64,000 bases of DNA, taken from contig OZ038526.1 in the NCBI GenBank assembly GCA_964036665.1, forward strand, positions 8,308,001 to 8,372,000. Reading direction: 5' to 3'. Source of the DNA: Gordius sp. MW1. Its lineage: Eukaryota; Nematomorpha; Gordioida; Gordea; Gordiidae. A program made the position numbers and the translations under genes. The notes below the pieces were generated by a model. That model was not told the DNA's origin, did no database searches, and worked only from the letters and a program-made list of their open reading frames with translations. This document shows positions 1,336 through 58,412 of this stretch, piece after piece. The first letter of the stretch is position 1. Each line of letters begins with the position of its first letter.

Positions 1336-4300
1336 ATGGATACTTATCGGATCCCCTCCATAATTCTTTTCTTGTGGTTTGGATTTGGATTTAAAAGTAA
1401 AAGTTGGCGGAAATTTTAATATAATAAAAATTTTAAAGTTTCTTGTTTTCTAAGATCGATTTAATTACGGGTATGCATCAATTTTAAAAATAAGTTGAAA
1501 GCAATATTAATATATCATGGTACACAGAAGGTTAATTCATTATAATTATATTAATTTATAATTTTTGCACTCGAATTATAATATTTAAAGTAAGATAATT
1601 TAATTTATAGTTTTCATTAAATCTCAGAAAAATTTCATAGCATATATTGTCCGAAATCCGTAGAATATCATACTAAATATTTTTTATAATTTAACCACAA
1701 ACAACGTTGCTCAAATTAATAAAATCTTAGATTAAAAGGCATGAGTATTCAATTATATTAAAGTAAGCTAATTTTCTCGAATGTCAGCCAGGTTTTGCCA
1801 AATCCCGAGACCATACAACACAATAATAATTAAAAAAATTTTACCAGAGCCCGATTGTTCTGATAGTTTCAACTTGAATATGATTCGACCTAGAGACCTG
1901 CACGGCCCGGCCCGCGGACGGGCCTAAAATCCCGGCCCGCGGGCCGGGCTTCTGCTTAAAAATAAAACAACAGGCCTGGACGGGCCGATATATAACGTAA
2001 AGGGCTCGGGCCGGGCCTAGTTATACATAAGGCCCGTTAAAAGCCCGTTAAAAAATTAATTAGATTTAGTATAAAAGAAGGTGTTTTTATAATGTTCTAA
2101 TTTGTAATTATTTTATGTATATTAACAAGGAAAGTTAAATTTTGTTTCCATCCTAGTTCATTAATTTATCAATAGCTCAACATGCATTATAAATGTTAAA
2201 GATAATTTATACACGTGATCCCATGGGCGGAGCCAATTTAAATTGGAGGGGGGCAGTTTAAATAGGGCAAAAAATGTCCTTTTCATCAGGAATTTTTGAA
2301 TTTTGAGGGGTGCAGCTGCCCATATTTGCCTCCCCATTTATACCCTCTAGCAATAATGAGTGAATTAATTTAATATTATTTTAATATATTTATATTAATT
2401 GCTATGCAATTTATGGGCTCTCTTTTGGTTATCCGTCCTGTCCTGTCCAACTTGTAATTTTTCATAATTGCCGTGGAAACTTATACGGGTTTTTAATGGC
2501 GTGAACTTATGCTTCTGTTAAAGACTTTTATTTAGCTGATCGCTGATTGGCTTTACTTTTTTCGACCTCGCCTAAGCTCAAATTCCATTAGTTTTTGTGC
2601 CTGACTGATTACCCTTATTAATAAACTTACTTTGGCAATTTGTCTAGGTTGTTAATTTATAACGGATGAATGCGAAACTGGCTAAATAATTCCCTACAAA
2701 TCAATGCTGACCGTTGCTAAATTATACTTTATCTGACCCCGGCCAAATGCCAAAATTTATATACTCATTATTATTAACAAATTTAAAAACAAACTCTAAA
2801 ATTTACAACCTCAAGATACTTTTATCACTGTTTTCTCATTTTATATCAATAATCTAATTATTTAAAATGGTGGCAAAGCAAAGAAGCTAAGTAGTTTTAT
2901 TAAAACATTATAACCTTAAATAAGGGTTTTAAACGTTTATTTGGCTTACAATGGTTTTATGTATCCTGAAATGCCACTTGTAGAAAAAAATTTTCCGTGT
3001 TGATCGTTTCTTAAAAGATAGAAGGACTCGAGTGACCGGGAAATACCAATTTTTTCTTTTTAAACTATTTTTATTAACATTTTTACAAACATATTGTTTG
3101 CCATATCAATAAAATTAAACAAAAAAATAAAAAAAATTTACGGGCCCGGGCCGGGCTCGGGCTTTGTATAAAATTAGCGGGCCGGGCCCGGGCTTGTAAT
3201 TTAATATTTTGACGGACCCGGGCCGGGCCGGGCTTTTAAATTTTTATTACGGGCGGGCCGACTGGCCTAAACAAGCCCGTTGCAGGTCACTAATTCGACC
3301 CAATATATAACACAAACCCCCCCCCCCCCCTATATTAACAAGTATTATTTGACCCAACACTTATAAAGAGAAGAGTCTACTAACATTAGAATTTATCAAA
3401 GCCATTAATTCTTGTATTTTTTATTTAATGTCAAATTTAATATTTACTTAAGATTTGATTTTTAAATATGTGTTCTATGTGATATTATACAACTTAATAA
3501 ATTGAGGCTGTTCCACTGTATGTTTCCCAAAAAACCTTGATCTATTCTATATACAGCCTAAAAATGTCAAATATATATCAAAGTTCACCTAAACACAACT
3601 AAACCTTAGCAAATGCCGCCTGTTAATTTTAAATTCATACAATTATCCAAGTGACACAAGACAAAATTGTCATTTATATAATCTGTTTTTTTTTCTAAAT
3701 AAAGGAACATATGGACAATTGTCATGGTCCTATAACACAATACCGAGAGATCGATATTTGGGTAATCTGACAAAAGATTTCATGTTCAAGATAGGTGGAG
3801 ATGTTTATAGCAAAGGGGAAAACACCATAGTTATACGAAATTTTGATTATGATGGAACACGGCCCTATCGGGCCCCTCGTAATATTTTATTTATTCGATT
3901 TAATGAATACTTTTGATATTTCCCTTTAAAGATGTTTTTTCATTCCTTTAAAAGCGAAAAAACTGGTTTGGTACTTATAAAAAATAAGTGTGTTGTGAAA
4001 CTTGATCATTATGAAAATTAGGTACTTCTTTAATATACATGATCCATTTTAAAAGTGGAAAATTTATCTCTTTTTTTTCTTCTTTATAAAATATTTGGGT
4101 CCCACAATTGGGGTTTGTTTTGATCAGTTTCTTTCATCTTGGTCGGGTCAGTAGCATGCCTTGATTATTCTTCTTAGTTTTCAAACTTTGTCCACTTGCC
4201 CTTTCCACGTGATAGGCGGTCGTCCTTTCCTCTCTTCCCCGGTACTTTCATGTCCAATACTTTTCGATTTAAATGATTCGTCTCCCTTATTAGTATATGC

Positions 4301-19131: not shown

Positions 19132-19760
<629 letters not shown>

Positions 19761-26109: not shown

Positions 26110-27850
26110 CGTTACATAAATCTTGGTGAGTATTTGACTTTGGGAAAATTAGCGGAACAGAAAGCTAATATTGGAATAAAAATTTTAGATTTAGCAATAT
26201 CTCGGTGTGTTTTACGATCTTCTGCATTTGAAAGTGGGTTAAAATTGTTATTAAATGACGCGATATTAACGCAGATAATGTCACAAGCGAGGATTACCAT
26301 CCTCCCAGGGGATTTACAACATCAGTCCGGACGCATCCTACCTTCTAGATCGAGGATGGATGGAATGCCGGTTTTCTAACGATTGAATCAAAAGGTTTAA
26401 CTTTTGATTACAAAGCGATATTTATTTAACTTTCAATGGAGTGGGTGATGAGCCCACGTATATATTTCTTTGTTGCAATTTTTGAAGGAATATTTTTCGG
26501 TAATTTTTATCAGAGACCAGATTGCCCGGCCCGGCCCGCTGCCCGAACATTTATTTTCGAGTGAGCCCGGGCGTTCACGATGATAGGATTCGGGCTTAAT
26601 AAAATTTGTTAGATAATGTATTATTTTGTTACTTTTTTATTTGATTGTATATAAAAATGCTAAAAGAGTTAAGAAACTTGCTTTTGCCATCTGTCCCCGA
26701 GTTATTTCTATAATTTTTGCCCGAACCACTCTATTTCTATCAAGTCCCTATCCCTAGCGACGTTTATGGAAAGGATTGAAATATTATATTTATGTAGCCC
26801 TTTCATTGTTCATAATTCACATGTGCCGTCTATACATAATACAAAACGTCATGCTCAAATTGACACAATGCATGCAAGTGTTAACATTTAAACTCTATTG
26901 ATAAATTATTGTTAAAAAGTAAGTTCTAAGAGCACAGATTGACTAATTGAACTAATTTTATTCATTTAGAAGTTTATTCATAGTGTAGGGGCTTAAACGA
27001 GCTAACCCAAAAGGGGAGTATTATTTTGTTTATTGTAAGAGTATTTATAAAATATGTATACTTTAAACTTAATTAAAAAATTGCTTATAAATATTTTGAA
27101 GGACATCGGCTTTAATAATATTTTGTTGTTATATGATTTGTAAACGTTCTAACATGTTTGTACCTAAATGCATTAGCAATTAATATATTAGTGTGACCTA
27201 AGCGGTTTTGCCAGTGATGACATTATTTTAAAGAAACTCTGGCCAAAATTTTTAGAAAGACCATATACTACGTTTTTTGACCCATTAGGATTAAAATTGA
27301 AGATCAAAAGTTTTATTTGGAAAAATCATTCGACTTTTAAATAATATAGGAAATCATATCTTGTCCGTGATAATAAAATATTTCTATATTTGTTTGATTC
27401 AATATACCATTAATTTAATGCTTATTTTTTGGTTGAAAGAATTTGAGATCGCAAAATTTCAGGCCTAACAGGCAAATTTAATATTTCGGGCCAAGCATTT
27501 CGGGCAGCTCTAATGTTTCGGGCGGGCCCGGGCGGACACGTAGAAGGGTTCGGGCGGGCTTGGGCGGGCAATGAAGTTAAAAAATTGAACCGGGCCGGGT
27601 TCGGGCATAAAATTTCAAACAAATCTGACCTCTTATTTTTATACCTAGTAGGAGGGCTATTGCATACGAAAGTTCTGGATTTGAGAGTAGAAGCCCTTAG
27701 TAATTGCTTCAGTATCACAACTCGAAAGTAGATAAGCGACGGAGCGTGATATTATACTGGCATCCCAATCTCGCTGTTTGGCCGACTCTGGTATGCTGAC
27801 TCCTGGTATGACGTTCTCATGCCAAGACGATATGGTCAATTCATGTTAAA
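26110..27850 (-). pseudogene. retroelement C-terminus split by a hAT insertion
   Basis: Minus strand. 27839-27657 reads SAKQRDWDASIISRSVAYLL, then SSCDTE. The frame is then cut by the hAT element at 26511-27634. Below it come the CKNC-like FKNCNKE, AHHPLH, GIPSILDLEGRMRPD, then the segment SNAEDRKTHRDIAKSKIFIP, ending about 26112. This is the same domain order as the copy at 13270-14300. Removing the hAT and one 8-bp duplication restores colinearity. Internal stops show that it was decaying as well. Confidence 0.7.
26511..27634. mobile_element. non-autonomous hAT element inserted in retroelement
   Basis: Left end CAGAGACCAGATTGCCCGG; right end reverse-complemented AAGAGGTCAGATTTG. The 8-bp flanks ATTTTTAT (26503-26510 and 27635-27642) are identical. 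GGGCGGGCTTGGGCGGGC-type repeats lie inside each end. It shares internal sequence (AGCCCTTTCATTGTTC and CATGTGCCGTCTATAC) with the hAT at 57373-58191. No transposase frame. Confidence 0.85.
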
Positions 27851-35849: not shown

Positions 35850-36880
35850 TGGATAAATTATTAAAATGAGTATAATTATAAATTTTAAATAAATAAATTA
35901 TAACCCCAAAACGACCAAAACCAAACCAAAAGGTTACCAAAATAATTCACCTAAACGCTAAGGGTGTTTTTTTGTAAAAACGCCAAACGCTAAAGGTCGA
36001 CCAAAATTTAATGCCATTTTATAATATTTTAAATGAAGCTTTAATCTCAGGGCATTTTCTAAAAAATTTAAAAAAAATTTGGCATGCTTATAAAGTGTAA
36101 AAACTGCTTGCAAAATTGTAAAAAGGATAGCCTTAATATAAACAAGATGCCATAATCTTCACCCAATCTTAGCTACAGTCAAAACAATCAAAAACCATAA
36201 GATATTTAACAATAACTATTTACACTAAATTAAATCATTATCAACATGCTCATTTAGTTAATCTAGTTCGTTCCATTTTTTTAGTCAACCTATTTTCCAG
36301 ATAATAATTTTTTTAATAATAACAATTAAGAGTAGCTAACTCTATAATCTAGATATAGAACGTGTTGCTAATATAATAAATCTGAGTTGCTATATATATG
36401 CAATTGATGATGGAATAGAAATTGCTCAAAAAGCTTAATTTGTATGCTTTAAAATGTTTACTATTCCCTAGATCTATGCAATATTTATTTTATATTTAAA
36501 TATATCTTAGTGCTTAGACGTTAATAGGTTTTGGCTTATATTGTTTTTTTATATAAACTGCATAAACACAGAGAAATTCCATCAATGAGCATATTATGTT
36601 CGGCAAATTTGATCATTAAAATAAAGAACAAGAGTGTGTATAGCAGTTGCATCAAGCCTACACTGGGCACAGGGACTTGCAAAGTAAATGTCGAAAACAC
36701 CTGTGGGAATTGAATCGGCAAAGCTTTTTAGCTAAGTGTGCATGGGAATGGATTACTGTGTAAGTTAAAAAAATGCCTTCTTCCCCAAAACTTTGGCAAT
36801 TAGCATAGAGTCATTTGTACCATCGCACTCTCCATTATCTTGAGTGTTAATTGATGATTAGACTAATGGGGTATAATTGA
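35850..36880. other. no supported gene
   Basis: AT-rich sequence between the RTE relic and the 3' end of the unknown minus-strand gene. A + strand stretch at 36570-36715 has some coding character but no start, splice partner or known motif. Confidence 0.3.
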
Positions 36881-44277: not shown

Positions 44278-45300
44278 TTATGTTTTAACCAAACCCAAGA
44301 GGTTAACCAGCGAGACAATGTACTTGTCATCCTTAACATTTTTAAGATAAATTTAATTACAAGATTTTAGTTACCTTCCATAGATTAGGTAGTGCAACTG
44401 GTTCGATGGAAAATGGAATTTGGATCTATTCACCCTTTCCCAACTTTTCGTAGGGGTAAATTTGCATCGATTCTGAGCCAAGCAATCATCATTGGTCTGG
44501 ATGACGTCCTCGTCGCTATAAGTACAACCGAAAAAACGGCGAAATTTTACCGTTTCCATTGCATAATTGCAGTGTTTAGGCGGATGTTTAATATAGTTGC
44601 TGTCATCCCCTTCTTTTACACTGTCAAGCAAATGGACCCTTCGAACGTGACCTACTTTAAGGAATTTCCAACATTGATCCTTGTCCATGCCCAAAGGTTT
44701 GAATAGCGAGCCGTATACCGTCATCCGATAAAAACCGAGTTTGCACTTGATGTAGCGGTAGGCAAAGAAGGAAACCAAATGCAGTGAATTTATGATGACG
44801 GATAGAGCCATATAAACAAAAACATCACAATCCCTGTAGCAGATGGCACCCAAGTTTTGACGAATCGCATCTACGGAAATCGGGAATGTGTGATTCGTGA
44901 TATTAAATTGATCGCCGATCTTATTTCCCCCATTTACACCGACCATCGTCACTGACGGGGCACTCAGCACTGTGGGATAATTAATGAGATACCACGCTAA
45001 TGAACATAGCCCGGCGGCTGATATAAAGGCCCGAATGTATAGGATGTGCCACTTAGATAATACGGGGATTATCATGGCTACACATATAATGAAATGAGAT
45101 AAGTGCAGGAGGTAATAACGATTACTGGAAGACGACCACATTTTCTGCAACGGACAATGGTCTGAAAGTTGTTCCGCGGAAGGGGCAAATCTTTTATGTC
45201 GCATGTCATTGATTGCTAGGAGGCTGCGATCGCTTTGATTGCTTACCGACGTTAATCGACTTTCATACCAAACTAATACGCTCAAACTCGACCGATCCAT
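44278..45300 (-). CDS. divergent Popeye-domain membrane protein
   Basis: Long first exon 45300-44445, then 44397-44375 and 44331-44278; introns of 47 and 43 bp; 310 residues. After an N-terminal stretch, CPLQKMW and LLHLSHFIICVAMIIPVL start three hydrophobic segments (about residues 63-80, 85-106 and 158-182). Then comes the Popeye signature region: VFVYMALSVIINSLHLVSFF, YGSLFKPLGMDKDQCWKFLK. Popeye (POPDC/BVES) proteins are three-pass plasma-membrane proteins whose cytosolic domain binds cAMP and which act in muscle and epithelia. Here the cAMP-pocket motifs (DSPEW and FQVT) are not recognisable. The last part (RCKF ... KDDKYIVSLVNLLG) fits the end of the domain. An N-glycosylation site (NITN) lies between segments two and three. 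If the small exons are wrong, the first exon reads on to a stop at 44371. Family assignment is by motif only. Confidence 0.58.
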
Positions 45301-47388: not shown

Positions 47389-49361
47389 TATTAATTGCTA
47401 TGCAATTTATGGGCTCGTTTTTTGTTGTCCGTCCGTCCGTCTGTCCGTCCGTCTGTCCGTCCGTCCATCCCTATCTATTTGCATTGGGTATATTAGGTTA
47501 TCGATTTTTTAAATTAATGCATGAGAAAGAGGTGCCCCACCCCTCATCTCTATCTCCCTCGCTGTGTTATTTTTTAAATTAATGCATAAGAGGTGCCCCA
47601 CCCCTCATCTCTATCTCCCTCGGTGTGTTATATATAAGATTTGTTAAATTATCTATTATATAATAAACATAAATAAAAGTTGTTCACTTTTAATTGCTAC
47701 TTTTAATTGCTATGCAATTTAACTAGTTATATAATAAACATAAATAGAAGTTGTTTACTTTTAATTGCTACTTTTAATTGCTCTGCAATTTAACTAGTTA
47801 TATAATAAACATAAATAAAAGTTGTTTACTTTTATAACTAGTTTTTGTTATATAATAAACATAGATAAAAGTTGTTTACTTTTAATGCTATGCAATTTAA
47901 CTAGTTATATAATAAACATAAATAAAAGTTGTTTACTTTTTAATTGCTATGCAATTTAACTAGTTTTGGGGTTAGAATCGCGGAGTTTTTTTTGACTCTT
48001 ATGATTGTTCTTGTTACTATCATTGATAATAAGAATTTTTGGCCGTCCGCTGGCTGCTGACCAATGAAAAAAATGACCATTGGCCAAAATGTGAATCGAA
48101 ATTATTTTTTTCGTTTTTTTTGACTATTATGATTGTTCCTGTTTCTACCATTGCTATTATGACTTTTTGGCCGTCCGCTGGCTGCTGACCAATGTTATAT
48201 AATAAACATAAATAAAAGTTGTTTACTTTTAATTGCTATGCAATTTAACTAGTTTTTGGGTTAGAATCCCAGAGTTTTTTTGACTCTTATGATTGTTCTT
48301 GTTACTATCATTGATAATAAGACTTTTTGGCCGTCCGCTGGCTGCTGACCAATGAAAAAAAAGACCATTGGCCAAAATGTGAGTCCGAGTTTATTTTTTC
48401 GTTTTTTTTGACTATTATGATTGTTCCTGTTACTACCATTGCTATTATGACTTTTTGGCCGTCCGCTGGCTCCTGACCGATTGCAAAAATGACCATTGGC
48501 CAAAATGTGAATCGAAATTATTTTTTTCGTTTTTTTTGACTATTATGATTGTTCCTGTTCCTACCATTGCTATTATGACTTTTTGGCCGTCCGCTGGCTG
48601 CTGACCAATGGAATAATATGACCATTGGCCAAAATGTGATTCGAAAACTTTTTTTTCGTTTTTTGACTATTATGAATTTATATCCACTTTTACTGTGTCC
48701 TGGCTGCTGACCAATGGAAAAAATGACCATTGGCCAAAATGTGATTCGAAAATTTTTTTTTCGTTTTTTTTACTCTTATGAATTTATATCCACTTTTACC
48801 GTGTGCTGGCTGCTGACCAATGGAAAAAAATGACCATTGGCCAAAGTGAGCATCAAAATTTTTTTTCCGTTTTTTTGGCTATCATTGACTTATAGAGTAT
48901 CTGTTGGTACTGTAGAGAAAAAGTGACCATTGGCCAAATTTTTGATTTTTTTAATTAAAAATTCAAATTCAACAAAAAGTTTCTCCCAACAATTCTCCAA
49001 ATTCTTAACATTGTGTTGTTTTATAATATAATGTTTGTTAGACCCATAATCACTAAAGGCCATAAAAACTAATGTAATACGCAACTAGATGCAAATACTA
49101 AATCTAACCCTAACCCTTGCCTATATTACATTTTGCCTTTATTACATTTTGCCTATAATGGAAAATTTGTATAAATAATTAATTAATCATTAGGCATTTA
49201 ATACCCCCTATAGGCATTCTCGCCCCTTCCCACCTTTCTCGCCCATAAATTGCATAGCAATGATACATTTATACGAAGTACAGATGAGTCGTCCCCCCTT
49301 CCCTTCCCTTCCCCTCTTCCCTTCCCTTCTCCCCCTTCCCACGAGGGCCGAAGGCCCGAGT
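47389..49361. mobile_element. Helentron-like non-autonomous element (HINE), copy 1
   Basis: Begins TATTAATTGCTATGCAATTT, in which AATTGC-TAT-GCAATT is a short hairpin, followed by GGGCTC and a GTCCGTCCGTCT microsatellite (about 47425-47465). Then come tandem units of about 60 bp (ATAATAAACATAAATAAAAG, 47640-47960) and of about 110 bp (GACCATTGGCCAAAATGTG, 47990-48930). Near the right is GCCCATAAATTGCATAGCAA, the inverse of the left terminus, then a C/T-rich run and GAGGGCCGAAGGCCCGAGT with a GGGCC/GGCCC hairpin. Subterminal inverted repeats, a GTCY-type microsatellite, minisatellite core and terminal hairpin are the layout described for Helentron-associated elements. No coding region. Confidence 0.6.
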
Positions 49362-49364
49362 TTA

Positions 49365-49910
49365 ATTACTAATTACCAATCTTTTGTGTGTGAAATGTGT
49401 ATTAACAAGTGTCAGGCCCTACCACTTGTTATTAGTTGATATATCAAATTAATTTTGAATTATATACATATGCAAATAGCGTTTAAGAATGCAATTAAAA
49501 TGCACATAATCGAAAACATAAAAATACAGAGGTGAGGTTACCTGATCCTTTCAAAGAACTTTGATATTCAAAACACAATGAACAATTGGGTTTAGAATAA
49601 TATGAAGCCGAAAACGTGGAATACAATAAAAGCAATCTAATAAATCAACACGTGCACACTCAAATAAACGAGTTTTCTCAGTTATGAAAAAGTTTGTGCC
49701 ATTAGGTTAAATATTTAGGAATGGGTTTAATATATTGATTTTCCCTAGGTATTTGAAAAAAGTTGGACACGTTTCGCATACAAATCAATAGGCCCAAATT
49801 TTTTTTAGTAAACATTAACGGTGTTATTTGCTAGAGCTTAAATTTAACACTTTATGCTTTTAAGATGTAATGTCTTCCTCTAGGCTTATAATTATTATTA
49901 TAAATGATAT
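49365..49910. other. no gene seen
   Basis: AT-rich spacer between the HINE copy and a G-run MITE; no exon or transposon ends recognised. Confidence 0.25.
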
Positions 49911-49913
49911 AAT

Positions 49914-50060
49914 CATGAGCGTAGCCAGGTTTTGGATTAGGGGGGGGGGGGGGGGCAAAACGTAAAATATTTTAATTTATAAGGATTTTTGCATTGAAAA
50001 TTTTTTTTTCTCGCCATTTAGGGGGGGGGGGGGCAGCCGCCCCCCCTGGCTACTTTCATG
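49914..50060. mobile_element. G-run MITE (GGCGTAGCC family)
   Basis: ATGAGCGTAGCCAGGTTTTG plus an 18-G run, AT-rich core, a second G run, then CAGCCGCCCCCCCTGGCTAC. Complete except for a worn right terminus. Confidence 0.75.
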
Positions 50061-50197
50061 GATACAATTAGTACCAAATACCTAACTTGTATTTAGTTAG
50101 CACGGCTACAAATAGAAGTCTTATAAATTGCCCATAAAGTAGATACAAAGTCGACCAATCCAGAAAGGAAAAATTAATCTATGGTATAATTTAATTG

Positions 50198-51045
50198 TAG
50201 GGGAAACCGGGGCTACTCTAGCCATAAAAAATACAATCACGTTTTAAAAAAATTATAAATTTTAATATTTTGACGGAACAGATTTTTAAGGTTTATTTTG
50301 CCTATAGGAAAAAATTTGGAGGGAAATAAGTAACAGTTTTCTCACAAATTAAGTCTAAAAAATACAAAAAAACCTAAAAATTTAAAAAATGCCCGGGGCT
50401 AATAGCCGATAGATTAACCCTGACGTTTTTACTTTTATATTAGTCTATGCTAACTCAAATCAATAAAAAGACTGTTTCATTATAAAAAATATAGAAAATG
50501 CAAAGTAATATAATTGTATTTTATAATACAATTAAAAAAGGGGTCAAGATGACAATCTGACTTAAACACACTTAAAAGACAGATTCTGCAATGGAAAAAA
50601 ACTTTTAGCAGTATTCTAATGTACAATCGTAGTCTATATCTATTCCAAATTACTAATTTAGATAATTATACAAAATTTTTATTTTTTAAATCTTGTCATT
50701 TGTAGGACGCAATGGCTAGCACTAGCCCATCTCCGACTAGCCCCGACCCCTATTTTTATAAACAATTAATAGTTTAACATGTTATATTGCATATCATTAG
50801 ACGGTTTTTATAAAAAACATCCCTTTATAGATAAAACTTAAATTAGTTAAAAATATAAAGCTAAAAATATGCGAAAAATCGTTTTTCCTCTATAAATTTT
50901 AATTTTTTTTTCTAAACAAAATTTTTTTTACTTATACCTTATAAATACACATATAATTTAAATTTTAATTATATATCATTATTATTTTAAAAATAATCAC
51001 AAAGATGATAGTAACCTCGGGCTACGACTAGCCCCGGTCTCCCTA
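50198..51045. mobile_element. non-autonomous element, GGGGAAACCGGGG ends (copy A)
   Basis: Left TAGGGGAAACCGGGGCTACT and right, reverse-complemented, TAGGGAGACCGGGGCTAG, forming imperfect inverted repeats with TA at each edge. TA duplications would suit a Tc1/mariner-type MITE. About 848 bp, AT-rich, no frame. Homologous to 19878-20780. Confidence 0.75.
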
Positions 51046-51049
51046 CTGA

Positions 51050-51825
51050 TCCCCTGAGGGTAGTTAACACCTAATGCTACCAAAATTTTTCACTTAATTT
51101 ATTACTCATTTTTTTTGTGTTTTATCCTTCTGAAATTTAAAGTATTTTGTATCAAGAAAATTACTTTGGCGTGGCATTCATTATTTTGATAGCTTATTAT
51201 CTAGTTAAGTAAAATAATTTTGCACATTTTAAGCTCCAAAATAGTGCTAAAAGCTATGCCAAAACAAGTTAAATAAAGTCGTTGCACTTTTGCCAAGAGT
51301 TGCTACAATTTAAATTTAGGCAAAACATGTTCGGATAATTAATTAGAGAACGTACTTTTTTACTGCGATTTGCAAGTTTACTCTTACACATTGAAGATAA
51401 CATAATATGTAAAATGTCAAGGTTCATATAAGCACTAATAATAATTTAATCGATCTTAATGTCTCTTTTACTGTTAATTGTTTCAAATATGCAAAGTTTT
51501 GTATGTAATCAGCTAAAGCGCATGCTTCATTTACTTTGATTATTGTTTTAAATAACGACATGCAATTTAAATGCAAATACATTTACAAAGAATCAACTTT
51601 GTTACAAATTGTCTACTGTTTGCAAAGGTCCTTACTCCTTAGGGTTAGGGTTTAACTAAAAAGAGATGAATATTTCTTAAGTTTTTAGAACTGTCCGTCA
51701 AAAATAGAATTCATATAGCTGGCAGGCCCCCCCCCCTTCTAAGAGCAAAAACGGGGCCCCATGGGCCCCCCTTAGGAGAAAAATCTTGGGCCCCTGGGCC
51801 CCTTAAGCCATTTATTTTATTTTAG
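51050..51825. other. no gene seen
   Basis: AT-rich, ending in a GGGCCCC-rich palindromic patch at 51724-51815 (GGGGCCCCATGGGCCCCCCT and TTGGGCCCCTGGGCCCC) that looks like a worn transposon terminus. Confidence 0.3.
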
Positions 51826-51826
51826 C

Positions 51827-52653
51827 TTAATAAAGAAACGATATAATGATTATTATTATTGTTTTTATAAAACTTTTAAATATAATATTACAAATAAAGA
51901 TGTTATTAGAAAGCAAAAAACGTTCAAGTGATTCATTTTTTTCATCATTTTTTAATTCAACAAAATCCATTTCTGATAAACTAGGTCCAGTCTGTTGAGA
52001 TTTAGGAACAAACAAATTGATATCCTCTAAAATATTTGCTTTCATGTTCGCAGCGCATTCTTTGAGAATCCAATTTCAATCTGTTTTAAAAGCAGGATGG
52101 AGAATAGCCGCCGACAGATTTTCTTTGCTAAAAAGATCCAAAAATCTATTAATTAGCTAGATTATACGTTATAAATAATATTAAACCTGTTATTGATGCC
52201 TTGAGTAATAGCATCTTTTAATGGCTTACACCATTTCAAGGAGCCCATAGATTCAATTTTCATCAATATTTGAGTGATTGTCGGGGTATAATATGCAAGA
52301 TACATATAGTTTTGCCCTTCCAAAAACTCAATTGCCTTTGCAATTGGTTCCATGACCTTTAAAAACCATTTTAAAATAATGCTAATGTTTAAATAAAAAT
52401 AAAATTTTACATGGCAATATTTTGCAATAAAATCACATTCATGTAATGTGAACTTTTGAAGATTCAGCTTGTCACATACACTTTGTAACCCATCAAATCG
52501 TCCCTTTATAATGAAAGTTATGTGCCTCATAGAATTGTGTAAGGAATTTAATCTTGTAATTAAAGGACATATAAAATAACAACCAAGTTGTTTTTTAAAC
52601 AACTCAGCAGCATGAGTTGATCTACCTTGCAAGTTCCACAACTGCTTAACCAA
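51827..52653 (-). pseudogene. hAT transposase C-terminal half, decayed
   Basis: Minus strand 52653-52162: LWNLQGRSTHAAELFKKQLG, then TRLNSLHNSMRHI (compare TRWNSxYDSLxRL of hAT proteins), VMEPIAKAIEFLEGQNYMYL, and PTITQILMKI. After a stop, 52150-51827 continues RFLDLFSKENLSAAILHPAF, then MKANILEDINLFV and an acidic end. The order matches the region between the hAT catalytic core and hATC domain. The conserved Trp of TRWNS is Leu and the final hATC motif is gone. Confidence 0.7.
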
Positions 52654-52754
52654 TTAAAGGAAGTGAACTTTATATAAATTACCATAAGTCGAAAAATTTA
52701 TTTAACAAACACTACCGTGAATAAAATACTAAATAATATTTAAATTATATATTA

Positions 52755-52952
52755 ATTTTAATGCAAATTGAAATTGGCAAAAGGAACTTAAAAGGAACTT
52801 GTAAGTAGTTCCTTTTGCGATAAATTGAGAAAAAAAGGAACTAGTTCCAGTTCAAGTTCCTCATTTTAAAAATGAACTTATTAGTTCCTTTTTTTTAAAA
52901 GAACTAGTTCCTTGGAACTAGTTCCTTGGAACTAGTTCCTTTAACAGCTCTA
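52755..52952. repeat. GGAACTAGTTCC subterminal repeats and hAT end
   Basis: At least eight AAGGAACT / AGTTCCTT units, several as the palindrome GGAACTAGTTCC, finishing TTTAACAGCTCTAG. The terminus (TAGAGCTGTTAAAG in reverse) equals the right end of the hAT at 19783-21886. These are probably transposase-binding repeats of the element encoding the relic at 51827-52653. Confidence 0.7.
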
Positions 52953-52959
52953 GTGATAT

Positions 52960-54645
52960 CCCATCATAAGTTTGATTAATTAATATTAATAACCAATTCC
53001 TGAATTTTATAGACAATTGTTAACGCATCAAAACTTTCAAGGAATAAATATCCTACAAAAATTCATTATGTTTGTCTTTGGACGCTAAGTTATTCTGTGC
53101 ATCTCACATCTCTAATTTCATCTAAAATTATTAAATAAAAATTTGATTCATTTAATTTTGACAGAATGTTTTTAAGGTTAATATAGCCGTTAAATTTATG
53201 AGTTCATCTTAGTTTTTAGGTGGTGAAGGGGGGGGGGTGTGTAAATATATCTCTAATATCATCAGGGACAATAATTTCTAAATACTCATTATCAAACGAA
53301 TTTTAATTTCATAATTAATTTTTTTTTATTTTATGTTATAATTACACCTTTTGAGTTGAGGATCACCTTAAAAAGGCTTTTAAATGTTCTCAATATATTC
53401 CTGATATAAATGCTGCCTGAAAATGCTGCCATATTGCATATGTAAAATTAAAATTTGTATACATATATGGCTAAGATTTTTAGGGTTGTGGCAATAATTT
53501 TTTATAAAAACTTGGTTATATAGCTTTTTAACTATTTGTATTATTTTTTAAAATGTCAAAGATTTCTTGCCAATATCCCCGTTCCACTTTGTGCCCTTAC
53601 AATTCATTTATACAAAACTTATTATACCATGTGAAATTATTAATATTGTTTCAACTATATTATTTTGTTTTATTTATGAATAAATTTTATTTATTTTATG
53701 CCCTATGAACATAAGGGTCTGAGATATACCACTTTGATGTTATTAGAAAAAATACACAAGGTAGTAGCCATAGGCGTAGCTACGGTTGCCTCATGGGGGG
53801 GGGTTTTCCAATAAAAGAATTTATATAATACTATTAAAGAAAAATTTATTATGCTTATATACAGTAGTGACGGAGGTAGGACTATCTAATTAGGGGGGGG
53901 GGGGGGTAATTTTGTGTCAAGAATATCGTTTAAACAAGAACTTATTAAATTATATAAATTCAATATCTACGATGGGTTTTTGGTGAAAATTGCATTAATA
54001 ATATTTTCAGAGACGCAAATTGCAAAGAGCTCTTTCCAATTTTTCTGTTTGCGCTAATTAGGGTCATTGTTTGAACTAAACACTTGCATGGGCCATTTAG
54101 GCTTAAATTTCCCACTAGAACCAATAATTGTCCCGCCCGGGACCGTTTAAATGAAATTATAAGCCTAAGTTCGCCCAGCTGATTTTTGCAAAACATAGGT
54201 TCAGACACCTATCCAAAAAAACTGTTTCCGCGGCTTTTTAAACCTTTTTTGTCAATACTAAAACAATCATTTATTTATATGTTGAAAATCGTCAATATTA
54301 ATCATGTTAAATATATCAGTCAACAGGTTTTTGTTTCTTCCAACAATTAACGCGCCGTTAAATTTTCACTAGTAGCACTTAAAGCTGCATAAAACATTTA
54401 TGATATTTAAAACTCTATGCAAGGCTAAATTTATATAACTAAATATACCTATTTTTGTTAATTTTTTCTCCCCTTATTAAAAAAAAAAACTTTTAGAATC
54501 CACTTATTTAAAAATCACAAGTTTTATGAGCAAATAACAAACAAAAATTAATATTGGATTAATTATATAGTAAAGTTAAACAATAAAATCTGATAAACAT
54601 CATCAAAAAACACCATTTTTATATATTAAAATAAAAGGTATTGCC
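52960..54645. other. no supported gene; decayed fragments
   Basis: Contains G-run MITE scraps at 53766-53812 (GGCGTAGCTACGG plus G run) and 53893-53907. A minus-strand frame at 54208-53960 (FCKNQLGELRLIISFKRS...) could be decayed coding sequence; another frame there reads KNWKELFAICVSENIINAIF. I cannot assign a family. Confidence 0.3.
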
Positions 54646-54654
54646 CTTACTAAT

Positions 54655-54750
54655 AGCTAGGCCCGTCCCGAGCCCGTTCTATTACCATAATGCTCGTCCA
54701 AGCCCGGCCCGCAATTTTTAACAAACATCTTATTCATGCCCGGTTTTGGC
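54655..54750. mobile_element. hAT GC-rich end fragment
   Basis: TAGGCCCGTCCCGAGCCCGT ... AAGCCCGGCCCGC, then CATGCCCGGTTTTGGCGG. Matches the subterminal repeats of the GGCCCGG hAT group, with no full terminus. Confidence 0.5.
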
Positions 54751-55369
54751 GGTGACAACTGTATTTGCTTTAAAAAAATTAGCTATATCATGATCATTAA
54801 AAATTAAACTTTAAAAAATGAATTTACTAAACCCTAAGAGATATTAATTTAAAGTTAAATTATTACATCAATTTCTACTGTAGAATTAGCACGCACAATT
54901 TCCAAAGAAATTAGATTTTAAAGTATGAATAAATGAAGCATGTGTTAATAAAATGTGCAAATCGCTTATTAAAATCATCATTTACATTGAGTGTTAATAT
55001 TTGTATTTTATTATTATACTCTTATTAGTAAACCCGCAATTTATATAAACAATGAATTAATGTAAGTTTAAATAACAATGTTAAATACTTAGAAAAATAA
55101 AATTATTAATTACCTTTATAACTAAAATTTGGCTTGCATCAGCATTTTCCTCGTTTAATTTAGGGGTTGAGATAGTTTTTTAGAGAAATAATTATGTAAT
55201 TATGAATTAAATTTCTTCTTATTAGAAAACACGCACGGGACAGAAATTTTCTGTTAAATAATGTTAGAATTAGTAGATTTCATCCAAAATTAAATATCAA
55301 ATTAATTAAGATAATTTGTTATTTCTATAGGCGCAACACACACAAGACTCCTATTCAATTTTTTTTGTC

Positions 55370-55643
55370 AATGGGGGGGGGGGGGGGGGTTAGAACCCCC
55401 CCCCCCCCCCCCCCCCTTCCCTACGCTACTAATAGTAACGGAATTTTAAGTTTGTCCAACGTTTATGAGGGAAAAAATTTTCAATTGCATTTGACCCATG
55501 GTCGTATCCAGGTTTTGGATTGGGGGGGGGGGGGCAAAACATAAATATTTTTAATATTTAAGGGTTTTCGTTGGAATTTTTTTCGACCAGCTCAGCCCCC
55601 CCCCCCCCCCCCCCCCCAAGGCAAAAAGGCTAGCTACGCCACT
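55370..55643. mobile_element. two adjacent G-run MITE copies
   Basis: A collapsed copy at about 55372-55432 (19-G run directly followed by a C run and CCTACGCTACT) and a fuller copy at 55497-55643 (GGTCGTATCCAGGTTTTGGA ... CTAGCTACGCCACTG). They immediately precede the second HINE copy. Confidence 0.65.
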
Positions 55644-55668
55644 GATAGCTGGCTTCATTGTAACTGTT

Positions 55669-58412
55669 TATTAATTGCTATGCAATTTATGGGCTCGTTT
55701 TTGGTTGTCCGTTGTCCGTTGTCTGTCCGTTGTCCGTCCGTTACCCTCCCTATCTATTTGCATTGGGTATATTAGGTTATCGCTTTTTTAAATTAATGCA
55801 TGAGAAAGAGGTGCCCCACCCCTCATCTCTATCTCCCTCGCTGTGTTATTTTTTAAATTAATGCATAAGAGGTGCCCCACCCCTCATCTCTATCTCCCTC
55901 GGTGTGTTATATTATATATAAGATTTGTTAAATTATCTATTATATAATAAACATAGATAAAAGTTGTTTACTTTTAATGCTATGCAATTTAACTAGTTAT
56001 ATAATAAACATAAATAAAAGTTGTTTACTTTTAATTGCTATGCAATTTAACTCGTTTTTGTTATATAATAAACATAGATAAAAGTTGTTTACTTTTAATG
56101 CTATGCAATTTAACTAGTTATATAATAAACATAAATAAAAGTTGTTTACTTTTTAATTGCTATGCAATTTAACTAGTTTTGGGGTTAGAATCCCGGAGTT
56201 TTTTTGACTCTTATGATTGTTCTTGTTACTATCATTGATAATAAGAATTTTTGGCCGTCCGCTGGCTGCTGACCAATGAAAAAAATGACCATTGGCCAAA
56301 ATGTGAATCGAAATTATTTTTTTGTTTTTTTTTGACTATTATGATTGTTCCTGTTTCTACCATTGCTATTATGACTTTTTGGCCGTCCGCTGGCTGCTGA
56401 CCAATGTTATATAATAAACATAAATAAAAGTTGTATACTTTTAATTGCTATGCAATTTAACTAGTTTTTGGGTTAGAATCCCGGAGTTTTTTTTGACTCT
56501 TATGATTGTTCTTGTTACTATCATTGATAATAAGACTTTTTGGCCGTCCGTTGGCTGCTGACCAATGAAAAAAATGACCATTGGCCAAAATGTGAATCCG
56601 AGTTTATTTTTTCGTTTTTTTTGACTATTATGATTGTTCCTGTTACTACCATTGCTATTATGACTTTTTGGCCGTCCGCTGGCTTCTGACCGATGGAAAA
56701 AATGACCATTGGCCAAAATGTGAATCGAAATTATTTTTTTCGTTTTTTTTGACTATTATGATTGTTCCTGTTCCTACCATTGCTATTATGACTTTTTGGT
56801 CGTCCGCTGGCTGCTGACCAATGGAATAAAATGACCATTGGCCAAAATGTGATTCGAAAACTTTTTTTTCGTTTTTTTTTGACTATTATGAATTTTACCG
56901 TGTCCTAGCTGCTGACCAATGGAAAAAAATGACCATTGGGCCAAAATGTGATTCGAAAATTTTTTTTTGGTTTTTTTTACTCTTGTGAATTTATATCTAC
57001 TTTTACCGTGTGCTGGCTACTGACCAATGGAAAAAAATGACCATTGGCCAAAGTGAGCATCAAAATATTTTTTTTCGTTTTTTTGGCTATCATTGACTTA
57101 TAGAGTATCTGTTGGTACTGACCAATAGAGAAAAAGTGACCATTGGCCAAATTTTTGATTTTTTTAATTAAAAATTGTTCAAATTCAACAAAAAATTTCT
57201 CCCAACAATTCTGCAAATTCTTAACATTGTGTTGTTTTATAATATAATGTTTGTTAGACCCATAATCACTAAAGGCCATAAAAACTAATGTAATACGCAA
57301 CTAGATGCAAACACTAAATCTAACCCTAACCCTTGCCTATATTACATTTTGCCTTTATTACATTTTGCCTATCAGAGATCAAATTGCCCGGCCCGGCCCG
57401 CTGCCCGAACAGGCCCGGCCCGACCCGGCCCGTGGGCCGGGTCGGGCCGGGCAACTGTCCTAAATTTTTATTTTCGGGCGGGCTCGGGCGGGCACGAAGA
57501 AGATAGGATTCGGGCAATTCGGGCTTAATGAGTTTTTAGATAGTGTATTTTTTTGTTACTTTTCATTAAATTGCATATGAAAATGCTAAAAAATCGCCAT
57601 CCGTCCCCAAGTTATTTTTACAATTTTTGCCACAACCCCTTTATTTCCATCAAGTCCCTAGCTAGGTTATGGAAAGGATTAAAATATTTATATTTATGCA
57701 GCCCTTTCATTGTTCGTAATTCGCATGTGCCGTCTATACTAGTACAAAATCGTCACGCCCAAATTGATACAACGCCTGAAAGTGTTAAATTTCATTCTAA
57801 TATCATTTAATTTTTTAACAAATGATTTAACAAGGCTTCTCCAAATTCGCCTTTATTATTCCCTAATCACTCATCGCTATCGCTAAGCTCAAATATTTTA
57901 GAAAGACCAAATACTACGTTTTTTTGACCAATTAGGATTAAAATTAAAGTACAAAAGTTTCATTTGAAAAAATCATTCGACTTTTAAATATTAAAAGAAT
58001 TTTAGGTCGCAAAATTTCGGGCCTAACAGGCAAATTTAATATTTCGGGCCGGGCATTTCGGGCAGCATTAATGTTTCGGGCGGGCTCGGGCGGACACCAG
58101 AAGGGTTCGGGCGGGCTCGGGCGGGCAATGAGGTTAGAGAATTGAACCGGGCCGGGTTCGGGCAGAAAATTCCTAACAAATCTGACCTCTGTTGCCTATA
58201 ATGGAAAATTTGTATAAATAATTAATTAATCATTAGGCATTTAATACCCCCCTATAGGCATTCTCGCCCCTTCCCACCTTTCTCGCCCATAAATTGCATA
58301 GCAAATATGATACATTTATACGAAGTACAGATGAGTCGTCCCCCCTTCCCTTCCCCTCTTCCCTCCCTTCCCTTCCCTTCTCCCCCTTCCCACGAGGGCC
58401 GAAGGCCCGAGT
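55669..58412. mobile_element. Helentron-like element (HINE), copy 2, with nested hAT
   Basis: Same order of parts as copy 1: the TATTAATTGCTATGCAATTT hairpin, a GTCCGTT/GTCTGTCC run, the ATAATAAACATAAATAAAAG units, and the GACCATTGGCC units (56260-57140). Then come the inverse GCCCATAAATTGCATAGCAA and the GAGGGCCGAAGGCCCGAGT hairpin end. It differs from copy 1 by an 819-bp hAT insertion (57373-58191). Identity to copy 1 is high over long stretches, indicating recent activity or segmental copying. Confidence 0.6.
57373..58191. mobile_element. non-autonomous hAT element with verified empty site
   Basis: Ends CAGAGATCAAATTGCCCGG and (reverse complement) CAGAGGTCAGATTTG. The duplicated TTGCCTAT flanks it at 57365-57372 and 58192-58199. 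The other HINE copy has a single TTGCCTAT at 49149-49156 with the flanking sequence joined, i.e. the pre-insertion state. Same family as 26511-27634. Confidence 0.92.

Follow-up and report, generated by a model that had tools for sequence, protein, structure and literature searches.

Two probable non-autonomous Helentrons with layered tandem-repeat cores, and an autonomous Helentron relative, in the genome of Gordius sp. MW1

Two interspersed elements of closely similar design, here called W1 and W2, lie in a 64,000-nucleotide stretch of the genome of the nematomorph Gordius sp. MW1 (G000:C8:8308001-8372000; the whole of this stretch is referred to as the window). Both are on the plus strand, and both are very probably non-autonomous Helentrons (HINEs). 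W1 spans 47390-49363, as delimited by a boundary comparison of 22 copies and by its T-run flanks, from the left terminus ATTAATTGC to a right terminus of GAGT plus a T run. Its left subterminal inverted repeat (47394-47414) holds most of the palindrome AATTGCTATGCAATT (47393-47407). It is followed by a (GTCC)n/(GTCT) microsatellite (47427-47470), two copies of a 61-bp unit (47504-47631), and an array of 57/58-bp units that bear the terminal palindrome (47649-47965). A second core (47966-48882) consists of 128/106-bp units, including the unit recognized by folding as a CCAATGG...CCATTGG hairpin, set within a 288-bp higher-order repeat. The right subterminal inverted repeat (49241-49261) is complementary to the left one at 100% of its 21 nt; a C/T-rich minisatellite (49292-49340) leads from it to the terminal hairpin GGGCCGAAGGCCC (49345-49357). 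Tandem repeats in both elements were detected by Tandem Repeats Finder (TRF).

W2, delimited by the same comparison, spans 55670-58412 and is interrupted. It repeats the plan: left subterminal inverted repeat with palindrome (55674-55694), TGTCCGTTGTC microsatellite (55713-55742), two 61-bp units (55784-55910), 57/58-bp array (55933-56178), second core of 128/108/99-bp units (56179-57151), right subterminal inverted repeat (58285-58304) and terminal hairpin GGGCCGAAGGCCC (58396-58408). The inverted repeat of W2 sits within a 34-nt pairing of 85%. In both elements the parts come in the same order, i.e., palindrome with subterminal repeat, microsatellite, 61-bp pair, 57/58-bp array, 128-bp-type array with the 288-bp period, inverted repeat, C/T minisatellite, GGGCCGAAGGCCC hairpin and GAGT, and the two are 91-92% identical across ~1.8 kb. 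Their interiors contain no open reading frame (ORF) of at least 150 aa, and tblastn of the canonical RepHel families A and C against the window gave no match. A 29-nt left-end motif is exact at 47394-47422 (W1) and 55674-55702 (W2) and occurs a third time, with 2 mismatches, at 2398-2426; 100 shuffles yielded 0 occurrences. The third occurrence belongs to a scrap of the family (2395-2448, plus strand) made of the left end and a TGTCC microsatellite, and nothing more. Thus all the shared parts named in a preliminary description of this DNA (hairpin ends, subterminal repeats, microsatellite, two cores and a GGGCC hairpin), as well as the left-end scrap that it placed near 2393, could be located by coordinates.

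The interruption of W2 is an insert of 819 bp (57373-58191), read from the sequence, with the ends CAGAGATCA...TGACCTCTG, which we take to be hAT-like. An 8-bp duplication, TTGCCTAT, borders it on both sides (57365-57372 and 58192-58199), and its insertion came after that of W2 itself; the preliminary description does not mention it. A relative with 93.7% identity is present in L038. Pieces related to the insert (76-95% identity, with the same first ~40 bases) also occur at 26508-27633 of the window.

The family is large. The genome searched (211.8 Mb in 12 contigs) contains 2187 exact matches to the 33-mer of the left end and 3542 to the 22-mer of the right end, and none (0 each) to the reversed patterns. 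For the boundary comparison, 20 further copies were picked on contig C1, from the first 100 places listed, as having both exact ends close together on one strand; the ends are identical in these 20 because exact ends were the selection criterion. W1 and W2 are each ~97% identical to their best partner copies across 1.3-1.7 kb; many pairs are lower, down to ~70-88% over parts, and three of the 20 copies (L045, L047, L059) resemble W1 and W2 only in the ends and in portions of the core. The boundaries, whose constancy between copies was a question raised by the preliminary description, are constant: pairwise identity among 23 elements climbs abruptly at the element ends, and its values in the host flanks are 0.285 on the left and 0.307 on the right, with 0.302 predicted by composition (n=23). 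The right end runs GCCCATAAATTGCATAGCAA...GGGCCGAAGGCCCGAG(T). The right repeat GCCCATAAATTGCATAGCAA is exact in 17 of the 22 copies and a one-base variant in L047; the pattern had no match in the other four copies searched (L040, L043, L052, L058). In the 18 copies where it was located, this 3' inverted repeat starts at a distance of 100-160 nt from the end. The hairpin GGGCCGAAGGCCC, with a 5-bp stem, stands outside it, a few nt from the end, and is exact in 22/22 copies, 20 of which were selected for it. Hairpins were folded as single-stranded DNA, each against 200 shuffles. The CCAATGG...CCATTGG hairpin of one core unit was equalled by 0/200 shuffles and the left palindrome by 6/200.

The target is a run of T. 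Of the first 100 listed left ends, 96 have TT immediately upstream of AATTGC and 93 have T at position -4; of the first 100 listed right ends, all 100 have T after GAG and 97 have TT, the T run being 1-10 long. The search patterns left the near flank free, yet restricted one distant base. Empty sites were sought by comparing 23 joined flanks with the sequence fetched in the analysis. Five rows spanned the junction, among which an L041 self-match and a second L061 match (to L014, 54 nt, 77.8%) were dropped. Four empty sites, one nested, one long and two short, show no duplication beyond the T run, which as a target could hide a TT dinucleotide duplication. The nested case is L056, a HINE lying in the 58-bp unit of another HINE, where ATGTTT/ATTATATAAC became ATGTTTT-AATTGC...GAGTTTT-ATTATATAAC. 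The long one is L044 against L070 (394-nt alignment, 85.3%), and the short ones are L057 against window 35905-35959 (60 nt, 85%) and L061 against L010 (54 nt, 77.8%). Insertion between AT or TT without target duplication had been predicted; the TT and the lack of duplication beyond T hold, and AT is replaced by the T run. HINEs are described as inserting in T runs, with a variable number of T and no other duplication, in PMC4067079. Head-to-tail junctions, in which a right end abuts a left end, make up 2/100 of the listed left rows and 2/100 of the listed right rows; they fit either read-through multimers or insertion next to the T-rich right end of a resident element.

An autonomous relative is encoded elsewhere in the genome. 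A search with DUF6570 found 21 places. One of them, L074, has a single uninterrupted 1767-aa frame with DUF6570, Helitron_like_N, PIF1 and Exo_endo_phos domains. The Exo_endo_phos match (residues 1526-1739, E 1.8e-5) scores 25.0 bits against a cut-off of 24.5, with Rep and PIF1 upstream in the same frame. The frame holds QHRGSPHAHILLWL and GDFNLD, presumably a Rep motif and an endonuclease motif, respectively. Downstream of the frame is an RPA exon (REPA_OB_2, E 8.4e-11). By these predicted domains, the L074 element is a Helentron. L075 is 99.1% identical to it over 4856 bp, with a frame that stops short of the endonuclease, and a second, more distant Helentron family is represented by L076 (about 53-55% protein identity). 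The preliminary description had suggested that the HINE family looked active; with best HINE pairs at ~97% and Helentron copies at 99.1%, the sequences suggest recent movement at most.

Upstream of the L074 genes, the left end has the sequence TTTTTAATTGCTATGCAATTTATGGGC; past a 9-nt duplication comes TCACTTTCCATTTTCC, which is how left ends in L004 start too. A HINE-type core follows this left end; it is 99.6% identical over 1218 bp in L073, a second Helentron locus, and the Helentron leader contains a further 25-nt match to the left end. Since no HINE right end occurs between the L074 left end and the Helentron genes, the left end and core are taken as the Helentron's own. Of the 3' sides, that of L074 is truncated inside 288-bp repeats, that of L075 is broken by another insertion, the pair on contig C2 is a tail-to-tail inverted dimer, and a copy at C6:5.52 Mb was read in part. 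A 1001-base query from the Helentron 3' side gave full-length matches only at C8:4.08 Mb, C6:5.52 Mb and both C2 arms among the 40 scored of 431 candidates.

Taken together, the constant ends, the insertion in T runs without other duplication, and a RepHel-endonuclease element with the same left end bear out the Helentron-like (HINE) identity given in the preliminary description. With high probability, W1 and W2 are non-autonomous Helentrons whose left end would be recognized by Helentron proteins encoded elsewhere in the genome and which insert in T runs without duplication. By the features listed in PMC4067079, the family to which they belong is a HINE family. On our reading, such HINEs are internal-deletion derivatives or close sisters of the Helentron. 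The proposed mechanism is borrowed from the superfamily. The Rep/helicase/endonuclease protein of the autonomous Helentron would recognize the palindromic left end, where Rep would nick; the helicase would peel off one strand while replication refills the gap; the 3' hairpin would end strand displacement; and the displaced strand would join a T^T site in a T run, without target duplication.

Several observations weigh against this interpretation. No transposition event was observed. The right terminal hairpin is matched in stability by 17/200 shuffles, and by 78/200 when folded with upstream sequence; because shuffles often fold equally well, the support from the hairpins lies in their conservation and not in their stability. 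The 3' inverted repeat is farther from the end than in the mite HINEs described in PMC4067079. In L073 the core comes after a broken ORF and not before it, so that the order of parts is variable, and a HINE fragment inserted next to the Helentron, or a rearrangement, could account for the left end and core of L074. The RepHel element with the same ends that the preliminary description envisaged was found as to its left end and a related core, but the Helentron right terminus was not reached in the four copies followed. The core is 82.5% identical to that of W2 over 862 bp, below the >95% reported for partner pairs (PMC4067079), and the Helentron is thus not the immediate parent of W1 and W2. 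Because of this core identity and the right end not reached, the mobilization of W1 and W2, by the L074 Helentron or a sister lineage, is what we infer, as is the enzymology.

The perfect 21-bp inverted repeats near both ends of W1 would also be expected of a miniature inverted-repeat transposable element (MITE) or another cut-and-paste element, having short inverted repeats, a DDE transposase and a target duplication. However, these repeats are subterminal, the right one lying ~120 nt inside; the four empty sites show nothing beyond T where a target duplication of fixed length should be; the ends are asymmetric, with a GGGCC hairpin on one side only; and head-to-tail junctions occur. A cut-and-paste origin is therefore extremely improbable. 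Canonical Helitrons, with a 5' TC, a 3' CTRR and an A^T target, are a very abundant source of Rep and helicase (714 candidate Helitron_like_N domains genome-wide, 150 of them scored), and the canonical Helitron L061 carries a nested HINE. As far as they were read, the best Helitron_like_N hits are canonical Helitrons. Blastn links the top 30 loci with each other, and nine further hits of the 150, taken for their lower scores or long frames, match the same proteins by tblastn. That W1 and W2 are non-autonomous canonical Helitrons moved by these RepHel elements is nevertheless very unlikely. The HINE ends are [A/T]TTAATTGC and GAGT(T) and the target is T^T, not A^T, whereas canonical family A ends in ...GGGTCAGCTAG in L010, L015 and L061. 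Neither HINE end is present in any of 30 RepN loci taken with 1.5-kb flanks. In 10-kb fetches, L061 has both HINE ends in the form of the nested HINE, and L060 has one isolated TTGCTATGCAA and neither end. Canonical Helitrons were likewise rejected as the partner of the HINEs: family A ends in CTAG, and in no locus read are the HINE ends the element's own termini. Like the Helentron, the canonical families A and C of this genome (L010, L060, L061) encode Rep and a PIF1 helicase. The CTAG 3' end of family A is seen in GCAAAACAACGTTTGCCGGGTCAGCTAG, where the HINE ends are not its own, and the one full-length frame of family C that was scanned gave no endonuclease match.

Among known systems, the closest in plan are HINE-Mo of the mite Metaseiulus occidentalis and the Culex HINEs, which were compared by their described features and not by sequence. 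As presented in PMC4067079, these likewise have palindromic subterminal repeats a few nt from the 5' end, a 3' hairpin, variable T strings at both borders, a TT target without duplication, and a Helentron partner with an endonuclease (in the mite with RPA too), to which a candidate partner corresponds in the present genome. They differ in that the 3' inverted repeat starts about 38-60 nt from the end in the mite, against 100-160 nt here, the longer spacing being due to the C/T minisatellite, and in that the present core is layered, with several unit types, and less similar to that of the Helentron. Cg_HINE of the oyster Crassostrea gigas (PMC7492417) likewise has a GTCY/GTCC microsatellite beside the left repeat and a 3' inverted repeat with a palindrome. 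It has one, exceptionally two, consecutive tandem arrays, so that layered cores occur in some copies, as here. It has a separate inverted repeat beside the left subterminal inverted repeat, whereas here the left repeat is itself palindromic and recurs in the array; and no autonomous partner could be linked to it in that study, whereas here an autonomous relative was found. Drosophila DINE-1/INE-1 follows the same plan of subterminal inverted repeat, microsatellite, central repeats and 3' stem-loop, but its 13-bp subterminal repeat, unlike that of W1 and W2, is not palindromic, its inverted repeat is separate and its core sequence is conserved (PMC4067079). According to the same source, the most abundant repeats of Drosophila melanogaster belong to the HINEs. 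The present genome combines thousands of end copies, nested empty sites and a Rep/helicase/endonuclease frame with RPA and the same left end, which makes the HINE partner question testable. It also shows, in a concrete example, a terminus that recurs within the satellite-like core of its own element.

That the terminal palindrome is part of an internal unit of ~60 bp, as stated in the preliminary description, is borne out: the terminus shares 19 nt, TTAATTGCTATGCAATTTA, with the 57/58-bp unit. The shared length is 22 nt for L047-type internal copies, 23 nt for a 288-bp repeat on the Helentron 3' side and 25 nt for a 461-bp leader repeat of the Helentron. Left ends complete with microsatellite are also found inside the cores or arrays of other copies (L004, L006, L056). 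Most likely, judging from these sequences, the end-like part of the core arose by insertion of 5' ends followed by tandem duplication: 5' ends would repeatedly insert into T-rich older copies, and tandem duplication would then multiply them. The earlier suggestion that the core grew by copying the end is favored by the sequence to this extent, with direction and mechanism unsettled. The reverse order, in which the internal palindromes are the older and a tandem array supplied the left end, would explain why at least four unit types share one 19-25 nt string, and the direction of copying is not readable from similarity alone. But the left ends within other copies bring their microsatellite along, and the L047-type copies agree with the end over 22 nt, 3 more than the 58-bp unit (19), as expected if the end is the source. 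The internal palindromes, moreover, are in array context at 31 of 34 readable places (5989 places were counted). Recruitment from an array is thus unlikely. The use of internal palindromes as alternative 5' ends was considered and is unsupported; with 31 of the 34 in arrays, they would rarely act as such. Of the three outside arrays, one directly follows a HINE right end.

A broader proposal is tentative, and doubtful as a whole: the Helentron/HINE lineage may make its own satellites, the 19-25 nt palindrome seeding several unrelated unit types in both kinds of element through repeated 5'-end insertion into T-rich resident copies and subsequent tandem amplification, while autonomous copies tend to form tail-to-tail inverted pairs. 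Such pairs, if the proposal is true, would point to template-switching (snap-back) rolling-circle replication.

Other features of the HINE cores and of the Helentrons were recorded. HINE core units (e.g., in L045, L047, L055 and L004) contain GGGTTCGAATCCCGG, which resembles the T arm/B box of a tRNA. No tRNA was called by ARAGORN in the 7 loci scanned of 20 fetched, and an origin of the core from a tRNA or a short interspersed element (SINE) is no more than possible. The Helentron leader in L074 contains tandem repeats of the 5' part of the ORF, spaced ~292 bp apart (reverse strand, about 246-2242), so the protein start may differ between copies. A 220-aa ORF (L084:225-884, minus strand, and L081/L078) lies downstream of the Helentron RPA and the 288-bp repeats and matched no Pfam family; each arm of the C2 palindrome has it, as does the C6:5.52 Mb copy. 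Among the 21 DUF6570 places, ten fall into five possible convergent pairs with 4 to 36 kb between partners: C2:7808798+/7827372-, C8:5354407+/5366197-, C8:31246341+/31257802-, C2:14210633+/14214553- and C6:10957368+/10993435-. The C2 Helentron pair, one of two pairs tested, is a palindrome whose arms are 99.05% identical over 4430 bp. The C8:5.36 Mb pair has arms of 93% identity (672 nt) around the predicted center, with a 1.3-kb spacer, and is too diverged for a simple assembly error.

Elsewhere in the window, TRF detected a 626-bp TTAT microsatellite of 157 units with 99% match (19134-19759). A 309-aa ORF on the minus strand (44371-45300) matches the Popeye domain (POPDC1-3) at 27.8 bits, under the Pfam cut-off of 28.1. 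About 2.6 kb before the window start, at G000:C8:8304916-8305371, is a Helitron Rep domain with four internal stop codons.

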